A program made the position numbers and the translations under genes. The notes beneath the pieces were generated by a model. That model did no database searches and had not been told where the DNA came from. It saw nothing but the letters and a program-made list of their open reading frames with translations. A stretch of 60,277 nucleotides of DNA from a virus: positions 1-60,277 of the IMG/VR virus record IMGVR_UViG_3300042475_003740, one strand, 5' to 3'. This document shows, piece after piece, positions 47,812-52,960 of this stretch (the first letter of the stretch is position 1; each line of letters begins with the position of its first letter).

Positions 47812-48005
47812 CCCCCACCCTCCGCCCGTACCAGGCACAAGGCGTTGCGCTCACGACAAAGGGGGCCGAAGCCCCCTCTGCTGACAAGCCATGCCCAGGC
47901 GTGCCCAACCTAACCAATCTAAGCGGTACCGGGCCCCGTCCCGCCAGGCCTAACCACGACCGCCAGCAGGCGACCCATTCAGTATATCGCACCACAAGAC
48001 ATTGA
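47808..48005 (+). pseudogene. possible helicase N-terminal remnant
   Basis: The frame begins MTPTLRPYQAQGVALTT, echoing the start of the helicase at 48002 (MTTILRPRQVQALADL), but then breaks into unrelated sequence with a GGGGGC-CGAA-GCCCCC hairpin at 47861-47876. It may be the trace of a replaced or duplicated helicase start, or a short leader gene. Confidence 0.35.
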
Positions 48006-49387
48006 CCACAATCCTTCGCCCCCGCCAAGTTCAAGCCTTGGCTGATCTGCGACTGGCCTATGCGCAAGGCGCCAGGGCACCAATTCTGGTGGCGCCTACC
48101 GGATTCGGCAAAACCGCAACGGCCGCTGAAATCGTCCGCCAAGCCGTCGCTAAGGGCCGAAAGGTGTGGTTCCTGGCTCACCTGCGGGAGATCCTTGACG
48201 ACACGTCCGCCCGGTTGACTGCTGCGGGCATCAGCCACGGGCAGATCCGTGCGGGCCGATCGTCGGACTACTCAGCGGCGGTGCAGATTGTTGCCGTTCA
48301 AACTGCTGTACGTCGCCCGCGGCTGCCGAGGCCGGATCTGGTGATCATCGATGAATGCCATCTGGCGGTAGCCACCAGCTACCAGAAGGTGATGGCCGCC
48401 ACCGGCTGGCCGTTGCTGCTGGGTCTGACCGGCACTCCGCAACGGCTGGATGGCCGGGGCCTGGGGGAGGTGTTCGACCGGCTGGTGCTGACCTGCGGCA
48501 GCGCGGAACTGATCGAGGAGGGCCTGCTGGCACCGGTGCGGCTATTCGAGCCACCGGGGCTGGACCTGTCGGGCCTGCGCAGCCGTGCGGGAGAGTTTGA
48601 TCAGGGCCAGGCGGGCGACTTGCTGTCGAAGCCGGCGGTGGTTGGTGATGCGCTGAGCCACTGGAAGCGGTTGTGCATCGGCCGGCGCGGCGTGGCGTTC
48701 TGCACCACCGTTGCGCATGCCCATGCGGTGGCCGAGCAGTGGCAGCAGGCCGGATTCCGCGCGATGGCGGTGCATGGCGGCAGCGATGACGCGGAGCGTC
48801 GCGAGGCGATCGTTGGGCTGCGGGCCGGGCGCCTGGATCTTGTTGCTTGCGCTCAGCTCTGGATCGCCGGTGTTGACGTGCCGGAGATCGACGCGGTGAT
48901 CTGGCTGCGGCCGACGCAGAGTCTGACGGCATGGCTGCAGGGGATCGGGCGTGGGCTGCGGATTGCTCCGGGGAAGCGCGACCTGATCATCCTGGATCAC
49001 GTCGGCAACCGCGCCAGGCTGGGTCACCCGCTGGAGGTGCATGACTGGACGCTGGAGGGCCGGCAAAAGCGACAGCGCGAGGCGACGCTATCGGTGAAGA
49101 TTTGCCCCTCCTGTTTCAGCAGCGTGGCGAGCCGGTTGCCCGAGTGCCCGGAATGCGGCCATCGCTTCGTGGCGGAACGCCGTGCGCTTGAGCATGTGGA
49201 TGGTGAGCTTGTGGAAGTGGATCCGCTGCAGCTGCAGCGCGAGCAGCGCCGCGAGCAGGGCGAGGCCACCACCCTGGAGGCCCTGATCGATGTGGGCAAG
49301 CGTCGGGGGATGAAGAACCCCCGCGGCTGGGCCCGGCATGTCCTGGCTGCCCGGCAGGCGAAGGGTCACTGGGCGGGGGTGGCGTGA
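48002..49387 (+). CDS. SF2 DEAD/DEAH-type helicase
   Basis: A 461-residue ATP-dependent helicase starting at TTG (48002). Motif I ILVAPTGFGKTATAAE, motif II VIIDECHLA, motif III LGLTGTPQRLDG, then motifs IV-VI in the second domain (GVAFCTTVAHAHAVAEQWQQ, RLDLVACAQLWIAGVDVPEI, LQGIGRGLRIAPGK). A C-terminal zinc ribbon (CPSCFSSVASRLPECPECGH) follows. This is the phage UvsW-like/RIG-type DNA helicase arrangement; it should act in replication or recombination. Overlaps the Dcm gene by 4 nt. Confidence 0.88.
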   Translation: MTTILRPRQVQALADLRLAYAQGARAPILVAPTGFGKTATAAEIVRQAVAKGRKVWFLAHLREILDDTSARLTAAGISHGQIRAGRSSDYSAAVQIVAVQTAVRRPRLPRPDLVIIDECHLAVATSYQKVMAATGWPLLLGLTGTPQRLDGRGLGEVFDRLVLTCGSAELIEEGLLAPVRLFEPPGLDLSGLRSRAGEFDQGQAGDLLSKPAVVGDALSHWKRLCIGRRGVAFCTTVAHAHAVAEQWQQAGFRAMAVHGGSDDAERREAIVGLRAGRLDLVACAQLWIAGVDVPEIDAVIWLRPTQSLTAWLQGIGRGLRIAPGKRDLIILDHVGNRARLGHPLEVHDWTLEGRQKRQREATLSVKICPSCFSSVASRLPECPECGHRFVAERRALEHVDGELVEVDPLQLQREQRREQGEATTLEALIDVGKRRGMKNPRGWARHVLAARQAKGHWAGVA

Positions 49388-50127
49388 CTCTCCGCATGAT
49401 CGACACCTTCAGCGGCATCGGCGGCTTCTCGCTGGCGGCACGCTGGCTAGGCGAGATCGAGACGGTTCAGTTCGTGGAGCGCGAGCCGTACTGCCAGCGG
49501 ATCCTTCGTAAGCACTGGCCCACTGTCCCTATTCACGATGACATCTGCACCTATGAACCCGAGCCCGGTTCAGCCGACATTGTTTGCGGTGGATTTCCCT
49601 GCCAGGACTTATCGATCGCAGGGCAACGTCGTGGCCTTGGACATGACACCCGTTCCGGCCTGTTCTATCAGCTGCTCCGAATCGTTCGCGTGGTACGACC
49701 ACAGTTCGTCGTCATGGAAAACGTGGCGGCAATACTTGACGGGCACCTGGGAGCCGTGGTCGGAGCGCTGGCCGCGAATGGGTATGACTGTGAATGGGCA
49801 TGCGTATCAGCTGCCGATCTTGGAGCTTGGCACGTACGTGATCGGTGGTGGGCAGTTGCCTACCCCGAGTGCTACCGAATACAAGGGCACCTGCCGGACG
49901 CGATTTCGTGGCAGCGAGGACTCACGGATGTCACGTTTAGTGGAAGGGTTGAGAGTCTGCTCTACGGACCCCCAAGTGGCTCACCCCGATTCCGTGGAGA
50001 TCCTGATGGGGTTCCCGACTGGATGGACCGCCTGAAGGCCTTGGGCAATGCGGTGGTGCCGCAGGTGGCGATGGTGCCGCTGGCCAGGGTGCTGGAGCTG
50101 GACCGGCAGTTGGGGGCGGGGCCATGA
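49384..50127 (+). CDS. dcm: C5-cytosine DNA methyltransferase
   Basis: A 247-residue Dcm-type enzyme. Motif I DTFSGIGGFSLA (7-18), motif IV VCGGFPCQDLS with catalytic Cys73, motif VI VVMENVA (109-115), motif VIII-like VRDRWWAVAYP, motif X DRLKALGNAVVPQ. It is short: the target-recognition region is about 60 residues. Residues 52-217 are encoded by DNA that also carries the gene 49538-50035 in the +1 frame. Probably protects phage DNA. Confidence 0.88.
   Translation: MTLRMIDTFSGIGGFSLAARWLGEIETVQFVEREPYCQRILRKHWPTVPIHDDICTYEPEPGSADIVCGGFPCQDLSIAGQRRGLGHDTRSGLFYQLLRIVRVVRPQFVVMENVAAILDGHLGAVVGALAANGYDCEWACVSAADLGAWHVRDRWWAVAYPECYRIQGHLPDAISWQRGLTDVTFSGRVESLLYGPPSGSPRFRGDPDGVPDWMDRLKALGNAVVPQVAMVPLARVLELDRQLGAGP
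49538..50035 (+). CDS. overlapping +1-frame gene inside dcm (WKTW / MGFPTGWT family)
   Basis: A 165-residue frame fully inside dcm. It carries features I recall from proteins annotated beside many Dcm genes: QPTLFAVDFPA near the N terminus, SSSSWKTWRQYLTGTWEPWS (56-75), RWPRMGMTVNGHAYQLP, LPTPSATEYKG and a terminal LMGFPTGWTA. The WKTW codons are the +1 reading of MENVA and TVNG that of YDCEW, so the second frame is tied to conserved Dcm motifs. Either a genuine overprinted gene or a conserved shadow; I favour the former only moderately. Confidence 0.5.
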   Translation: MTSAPMNPSPVQPTLFAVDFPARTYRSQGNVVALDMTPVPACSISCSESFAWYDHSSSSWKTWRQYLTGTWEPWSERWPRMGMTVNGHAYQLPILELGTYVIGGGQLPTPSATEYKGTCRTRFRGSEDSRMSRLVEGLRVCSTDPQVAHPDSVEILMGFPTGWTA

Positions 50128-51682: not shown

Positions 51683-52960
51683 ATGCCTCTCAAGCCCTTT
51701 GCCAAAGGCCACGACCCCGTAGCGCTGGCGGCAGCGCTGGCGATCACCGACCGTGTTGCCAGGCAGGCTGCCATGGACGCCTTGCCTCGACCCGGCGCCA
51801 GGAAGTTGATCGATCCCCAGGCCGGTATCGGCGCCTTTCCGGCCCCGCGCCTGCGCATTGCTGTGCCTGAGGATGAGAGCGCCGAAACCGCCGCCGAACT
51901 GCTCGAAGTGGCTGGCGCCGCGTTGCTTAGGGATGTTCCGCTTGAGGCGATCAATATCCACCCCCTTGCTAATCGGCTGGCGCAGATCCTGGCGGAATTT
52001 GCCGTCGAGGGAACCTTTAGCACTAGCGCCAACCTGACGGCACAGCTTTGCCGGCAGCATGGTGCAGACGGCTTATTTCGAATCCATGCAGGCAGGCGGG
52101 GCCCGCGACTTGGCGCCCTGTTGGCGGCCAACGTCCCGTCAGGCTGGGGTGCGCCGCTGAGCTTTGCCTCCCGTCGGCGGTTGGGCTCGTATGGAGCGAC
52201 GGCTGACGAATGGGCTGCGCTGCAGCGGGGCAACGTGCCGCGACCTCAGTCGCTGAGTCCGCATCCCGAGCCAATCGCCACCGGCCGCGATATTGCCAGC
52301 CTCGCTGATCAGGATCCGCCGATCGAGATCCCTGATCTGATTGCCCGCCTGCTGCTGGCGGCCGGTGCGTCGTATTCCAGCCGGTTTGCCACCAGGCCAA
52401 ACGAGGTGCCGTTCGTCAGGAATGGCGGCGCTGTCGATCTGCAGTGCTCGATAGCAGAAGCGGCCGCCCCTGCGATGCGTTGCGCGTGGAAGTTGAAGTT
52501 CTTCGGCGCCCGCCGTCAGCGGCCGGAGGAGCTGTGGCCCCGCGCCATTGCTGGTGAGCTCCACCCGTCATTTCGTGAGCGGGGGCAATGGATCATCGAT
52601 CAGATTGGCGACTTCCTGCCGATGGCCTACGCCCCAGGGAGCCCCCTGCACAGCGATGATCCAAGCGGGCATGCCGTTTTGGCGGGTGTGGGCTTCACGT
52701 TGCTTAAGGCTTGGTTTGCTGATGGCCCCGTGCCATCGCTGGGCCTCGTTCGCCTCCATGAGGAGTTGGATTTGATGGCCAGCCATATGAGCTGGGGCCG
52801 AATCTGGGCTGGGATCCATAGCCCGTCATCCGTGCGTCGTGGCCTGGAGCTGGGGCAGCACTTTGCAATTCAGTTGCTCAATCGCCAGAAAGCCGAGAGC
52901 CCGACAGTGCTGGGCAATACAAGTTTCCTGAGCTATAGCGGGCAGATGCTTACTGTTTAG
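51683..52960 (+). CDS. vanadium-dependent haloperoxidase
   Basis: A 425-residue enzyme that would use vanadate and hydrogen peroxide to oxidise halide to hypohalous acid. All vanadate-site residues are visible in family order: Lys272 and Arg280 (KFFGARRQRP, 8 apart as in algal bromoperoxidases), Ser328-Gly329-His330 (DDPSGHAV), Arg373 and His379 (GRIWAGIH). Earlier, LLRDVPLEAI and a DEWAALQRG segment match the N-terminal half. Shorter than algal enzymes and without a signal peptide. It stands among recombination and lysis genes, with a junction motif upstream, as an acquired cassette. Halide preference cannot be judged. Confidence 0.88.
   Translation: MPLKPFAKGHDPVALAAALAITDRVARQAAMDALPRPGARKLIDPQAGIGAFPAPRLRIAVPEDESAETAAELLEVAGAALLRDVPLEAINIHPLANRLAQILAEFAVEGTFSTSANLTAQLCRQHGADGLFRIHAGRRGPRLGALLAANVPSGWGAPLSFASRRRLGSYGATADEWAALQRGNVPRPQSLSPHPEPIATGRDIASLADQDPPIEIPDLIARLLLAAGASYSSRFATRPNEVPFVRNGGAVDLQCSIAEAAAPAMRCAWKLKFFGARRQRPEELWPRAIAGELHPSFRERGQWIIDQIGDFLPMAYAPGSPLHSDDPSGHAVLAGVGFTLLKAWFADGPVPSLGLVRLHEELDLMASHMSWGRIWAGIHSPSSVRRGLELGQHFAIQLLNRQKAESPTVLGNTSFLSYSGQMLTV

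Follow-up and report, generated by a model that had tools for sequence, protein, structure and literature searches.

The beta polypeptide of the C5-methyltransferase M.EcoHK31I is encoded in a second reading frame within the gene of its alpha polypeptide. Bacteria and phages rarely have long overlaps on the same strand with conservation of both frames, and gene finders usually drop them. M.EcoHK31I and M.AquI are C5-methyltransferases that consist of two polypeptides (PMC3404938). The larger polypeptide of M.EcoHK31I contains motifs I-VIII and X as well as the predicted recognition domain, and the small one holds only motif IX of the motifs (PMC3404938); the enzyme appears in a list of E. coli Type II R-M systems (PMC6456624). 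In M.AquI, motifs I-VIII lie in one subunit and the distal variable region together with motifs IX-X in the other (PMC3404938). A second protein in another frame is also known from mycobacteriophage methylases, which carry an out-of-frame HNH, the 'ShiLan domain' (PMC11855218). Our literature searches yielded no paper describing the overlap reported here for phage dcm genes, in which the +1 frame of dcm is almost certainly a real and conserved overlapping gene.

Results

The locus was found in a window of 60,277 nucleotides, which is the whole stretch of DNA that was analysed (IMG/VR record IMGVR_UViG_3300042475_003740, positions 1 to 60,277). It is the record of a tailed phage and includes terminase, tape measure, primase and endolysin genes. 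An ORF near the endolysin gene (51683-52957) gave a weak match to the PAP2 superfamily (7e-5, under the Pfam cut-off). The dcm locus consists of the following genes:

48002-49387, plus strand: DNA helicase gene upstream of dcm (phrog_16 DNA helicase, 9e-86)
49384-50127, plus strand: dcm frame (frame 0) encoding alpha; GTG start, 247 aa (PF00145, E = 1e-34; phrog_363, E = 4e-66)
49451-49537, plus strand: open +1 frame 5′ of the first start codon, itself containing no start codon
49538-50035, plus strand: +1 ORF encoding beta, 165 aa from an ATG start to a TGA stop (phrog_1008, E = 1e-14)

The stop codon of the helicase gene and the GTG start of dcm overlap by 4 nt. Alpha is a C5-cytosine methyltransferase. 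It has motifs I-VIII and X; PCQ (IV), ENV (VI), RxR (VIII) and GN..P (X) were all found. After motif VIII, the pattern of motif IX is absent from frame 0 of the window, and between motifs VIII and X this frame exhibits a short unconserved stretch where the recognition domain would be expected. From 49451 on, 194 codons of the +1 frame are open; the earliest start codon among them is at 49538. The original prediction, made from the letters of the sequence, had described dcm together with this +1 ORF; both are present, QPTLF, SSSSWKTW, RWPRMGM, LPTPSATEYKG and MGFPTGWT occur in the +1 frame as quoted, and WKTW is indeed what MENVA gives when read in +1. The protein family to which the original prediction had pointed, from proteins annotated near Dcm genes, exists as phrog_1008. 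Its profile match covers residues 14-129 of beta from the window, and 132 of the 133 proteins in the beta alignment (the +1 proteins of the window and its relatives) match it as well. Both Streptococcus +1 proteins that were scanned match phrog_16143 (E = 6e-61 and 2e-64). In PHROGs the two families are labelled 'DNA methyltransferase', although these proteins are without motifs I-VIII, and the label is silent on the overlap. Comparison of beta with solved structures, Pfam and NCBIfam gave no match at a meaningful level, and the AlphaFold model of beta alone was of low confidence (pLDDT 63.6, pTM 0.30).

The nearest known enzyme, as judged by motif layout, is M.EcoHK31I (YGGCCR). As in M.EcoHK31I, alpha of the window carries motifs I-VIII and X, a second, putative polypeptide carries motif IX (an assignment that is partly inferred), and the beta gene is nested in the alpha gene in another frame. 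Unlike M.EcoHK31I, with its recognition domain in alpha, the window shows a dominant +1 frame in the corresponding region, and whereas M.EcoHK31I is listed as part of a Type II R-M system, no endonuclease was matched among the window genes that were scanned. M.AquI (CYCGRG) represents a plainer split, which is resembled by Streptomyces phage Heather (L017) and by the loci L244, L245, L247, L294 and L297. In window-type loci, unlike in M.AquI, frame 0 retains motif X, and the beta ORF starts and ends well within alpha. The ShiLan domain is a mobile insertion element; the overlap in the window instead involves the methylase core itself.

The length of the +1 ORF alone is weak evidence for a gene, because long spurious ORFs are common in the window, which holds 200 ORFs of at least 100 aa at its G+C content. 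Openness was compared with shuffles in which synonymous codons were permuted within each dcm, so that protein and codon usage were kept. The open +1 stretch of the window (195 codons) exceeded the shuffle mean of 84 codons (p = 0.003), and the +2 frame was unremarkable (40 versus 84 codons). Among 178 dcm relatives, which represent the clade carrying the overlap and not all dcm genes, as most were gathered with a frame-0 protein query whose alignment (A1) itself comprised loci initially detected through a +1 match, the +1 open stretch reached p ≤ 0.01 in 132 and p ≤ 0.05 in 159. For the relatives with a GC content of at most 0.52, the respective counts were 74 and 81 of 87. The identical test on flanking ORFs gave p ≤ 0.01 in one and p ≤ 0.05 in four of 100, with a ratio of observed to expected +1 stops of 0.99. 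Common +1 stops in relatives and undepleted synonymous change, which the original prediction had named as speaking against a second gene, are not what these shuffles and the conservation and codon-position results below show.

Residue conservation pointed in the same direction. In 52 dcm genes with less than 55% identity in frame 0, conservation in +1 exceeded the shuffle null with z = 55.9, for which the +2 value of 17.5 is the fairer baseline, because the shuffle null removes shared ancestry. The excess was restricted to dcm residues about 62-214 and faded on either side, and +1 stops clustered just past residue ~214, at motif X. Several +1 positions of this set that are near-invariant (M in 50 and P in 51 of 52) sit where frame 0 varies.

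Which of the two frames dominates was read from 48 disjoint dcm pairs, in which differences at frame-0 codon position 3 were compared with those at position 1 for each region (position 3/position 1 ratio). The locus is accordingly subdivided as follows:

49567-49860, plus strand: double-coding region with the N-terminal half of beta (TLFAVDFPARTY) opposite dcm motifs IV-VIII, by +1 conservation and position 3/position 1 ratio
49703-49726, plus strand: SSSSWKTW in the N-terminal half of beta
49769-49798, plus strand: WPRMGMTVNG in the N-terminal half of beta
49856-49888, plus strand: LPTPSATEYKG, with which the conserved beta block begins (P 41, T 45, P 40 and A 30 of about 50 +1 sequences)
49861-50022, plus strand: +1-dominant region, in which beta would carry the recognition region and motif IX (ratios 0.79 and 0.57)
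49979-50029, plus strand: AHPDSVEILMGFPTGWT, motif IX-like end of beta (M 50 and P 51 of 52 in +1)
50032-50064, plus strand: LKALGNAVVPQ, motif X, in frame 0 only (ratio 2.43, +1 signal absent)

The ratio was 2.52 in the N-terminal region, 1.73 opposite motifs IV-VIII and 2.43 in the motif X region. Between motifs VIII and X it was 0.79 and 0.57, i.e., the differences there are mostly at position 1. Position 1 exceeded position 3 in 41 of the 45 decided pairs in the TRD+IX region, compared to one of 48 pairs in the N-terminal region and one of 47 in the X region. Compared with L100, its nearest distinct relative, the window had an amino acid identity of 83% in the +1 frame of TRD+IX, against 72% in frame 0. 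The switch in codon-position pattern between VIII and X indicates that beta is the gene in this part and frame 0 its passenger, and the +1 dominance where a recognition domain is expected argues for this domain being located in beta. In other members of the beta family, LPTPTA-type repeats are present in several copies.

A +1 start codon with a Shine-Dalgarno sequence at dcm residues 30-66 was present in about 53-56 genes versus about 27-28 in shuffles, according to two slightly different counts on the same genes (56 versus 27.3 ± 3.5 and 53 versus 28.4 ± 4.2); frames 0 and +2 showed no enrichment. As a +1 stop lies at or past dcm residue 30 in 69 of 135 genes, a +1 start further upstream is excluded for these. 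Before the beta start of the window (49538) no clear Shine-Dalgarno sequence was found.

The end of beta, HPDSVEILMGFPTGW, resembles the methyltransferase motif IX that is missing from frame 0 of the window. When the tail of beta was compared with canonical Dcm, the top profile-profile alignment fell exactly on motif IX, yet was weak (P = 0.068), and a phmmer alignment to residues 272-291 of M.HhaI was not significant by itself. The main basis for tentatively assigning motif IX to beta is its position together with the single chains of mycobacteriophages. In most mycobacteriophage Dcms examined, the beta block is located in frame 0 of a single chain, immediately 5′ of motif X, and matches positions 120-186 of the A4 profile with i-Evalues down to 6e-12. 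At the level of sequence, these matches show that related phages have the C-terminal block of beta in frame within Dcm itself. When the mycobacteriophage Dcm alignment was compared with canonical Dcm by profile, only motifs I-VIII aligned. For one single-chain relative (L236), the predicted structure is similar to M.HhaI (E = 1e-13, TM 0.64), with a poorly modelled recognition region. Other loci of actinobacteria and actinophages have the block in +1. In phage Heather, L244, L245 and L247, frame 0 ends after motif VIII or without the C-terminal part, and the +1 ORF bears the block plus, where seen, motif X; L294 and L297 from a Pilimelia genome exhibit the same +1 layout. In two mycobacteriophage-type loci, L241 and L249, the beta-family match falls into frame +2 of the dcm ORF, perhaps due to indels, and these loci conform to neither the single-chain nor the split form. 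At L005 (3983-4741), the +1 ORF itself continues into RVDRLKALGNAVVPQ, with indels after motif VIII that are unlike those of the window.

The double-coding dcm arrangement recurs in phages and prophages of many bacterial phyla, which by record title include Pseudomonadota, Bacteroidota, Bacillota, Actinomycetota, Cyanobacteriota and others. All strong +1-family matches that were examined overlap a dcm gene, with few exceptions in its +1 frame. A free-standing beta was not found at any locus whose frame was analysed, including the matches from two phyla (150 and 199 genomes, respectively), so that the family members at loci lacking dcm for which the original prediction had proposed a search did not turn up. 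The A4 score was at least 40 bits in 160 of 160 relatives collected by frame 0, a result which is partly circular, as many of them are A4 members. Three contigs of one Lihuaxuella genome (C14, C31 and C38 of G001; L290, L292 and L293) carry three dcm/beta pairs with identical match scores. In three GenBank records (L013, L014 and L018), annotators called the +1 ORF in place of dcm, and that of L018 is named DNA-cytosine methyltransferase.

A query with a +1 protein of the Gram-positive type (type B) brought in 39 further loci (L251-L289), a set selected by the +1 protein, in which the +1 frame of the dcm ORF was open at p ≤ 0.005 in 39 of 39. Frame 0 reaches motif X in most of them, and in L162, L170 and most of L251-L280 the +1 ORF stands alongside such a frame 0. 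The +1 ORF of L162 and L170 is phrog_16143 with the C-terminus CSLSDILEENVPEEFFLS or one close to it. The Streptococcus type B dcm genes that were read even have their own motif IX in frame 0. In the type B alignment, the position 3/position 1 ratio is 1.6-2.2 in the overlap and 0.76 after motif VIII, where +1 is again dominant. The N-terminal half of beta is also kept in mycobacteriophages with the block in frame 0 (most of L219-L243). Beta thus occurs even next to an apparently complete alpha, and its N-terminal half may serve a separate role. At L289 (737-1084) the query match is in frame 0 of the called dcm ORF and +1 is also open, for 213 codons; in the other 38 loci of this search the match is in +1. 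The frame-0 ORF is short (149-188 codons) in L281, L282, L285 and L288, with that of L281 running into the contig end. Frame 0 of L285 ends in KKYFLSREKTEQLL; this resembles the +1 tail of other loci and suggests that the frame has switched.

Discussion

Judged by its pattern of sequence change, beta evolves under purifying selection as a protein. The idea of the original prediction that one stretch of DNA encodes two proteins is supported by this selection on the +1 frame, as seen in shuffles, residue conservation and codon positions. That a second protein is absent and the +1 similarity a mere by-product of dcm conservation and codon usage appears extremely unlikely. Canonical dcm genes in these searches do give weak +1 matches of about 20-37 bits, so some of the similarity is forced by frame 0; however, these matches carry stops in nearly all cases, and such an origin is contradicted by the synonymous shuffles, by the controls with flanking genes and with frame +2, and by the change in codon-position pattern. 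A spurious ORF was rejected.

With moderate confidence, we favour a nested two-subunit C5-methyltransferase which is completed by beta. Alpha, read from frame 0, would supply the cofactor and catalytic motifs I-VIII plus motif X. Beta, started inside dcm in the +1 frame, would supply with its C-terminal half the recognition region and the motif IX that alpha is missing, and both would assemble into the active phage enzyme. We infer that beta would be translated from its own start, bind alpha, be needed for methylation and set the specificity. The N-terminal half of beta may dock it on alpha. The original prediction had also suggested that the +1 family arose by overprinting of dcm. This probably applies to the N-terminal half, which lies opposite motifs IV-VIII, and to this half only; the C-terminal half seems to carry, shifted in frame, the recognition region and motif IX of the methyltransferase itself. 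Of the proposed roles as partner or inhibitor of the methylase, the partner fits best, and the inhibitor is without support.

A beta that merely supplies a missing part does not explain why its N-terminal half is found next to complete enzymes. It is possible, and we put this forward tentatively, that beta is an old and widespread overlapping gene whose N-terminal half has its own function and is kept in whichever frame the recognition region lies. The same persistence, in Gram-positive type B dcm genes with an in-frame motif X (and motif IX in Streptococcus) and in mycobacteriophage single chains, would also fit a real but accessory beta, i.e., a regulator, activity modulator or anti-restriction factor with a Dcm-like end that is no part of the enzyme. 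We regard this as rather unlikely, since it leaves unexplained both the missing motif IX in frame 0 of window-type loci and the fact that the block belongs to Dcm in related phages. Programmed ribosomal frameshifting, which would join frame 0 to +1 into one alternative Dcm polypeptide, is disfavoured and appears improbable. The +1 frame does directly follow motif VIII, and a single shift would yield a complete enzyme in Heather-type loci, but conservation opposite motifs IV-VIII already sets in 5′ of any site at which a shift would be useful, start codons with Shine-Dalgarno sequences are enriched in +1, and in the window type a shift into +1 would cost motif X.

If the nested two-subunit enzyme is right, many phage 'Dcm' annotations would denote half an enzyme, with the other half being unannotated or labelled as the methyltransferase itself, and the way in which orphan phage methylases are cloned and tested would change. 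Nested, split and single-chain forms would then provide a series for studying the origin of overlapping genes and the evolution of split enzymes. If instead the N-terminal half of beta has a function of its own, one stretch of DNA would encode a methyltransferase and a separate conserved partner in phages of many bacterial phyla.
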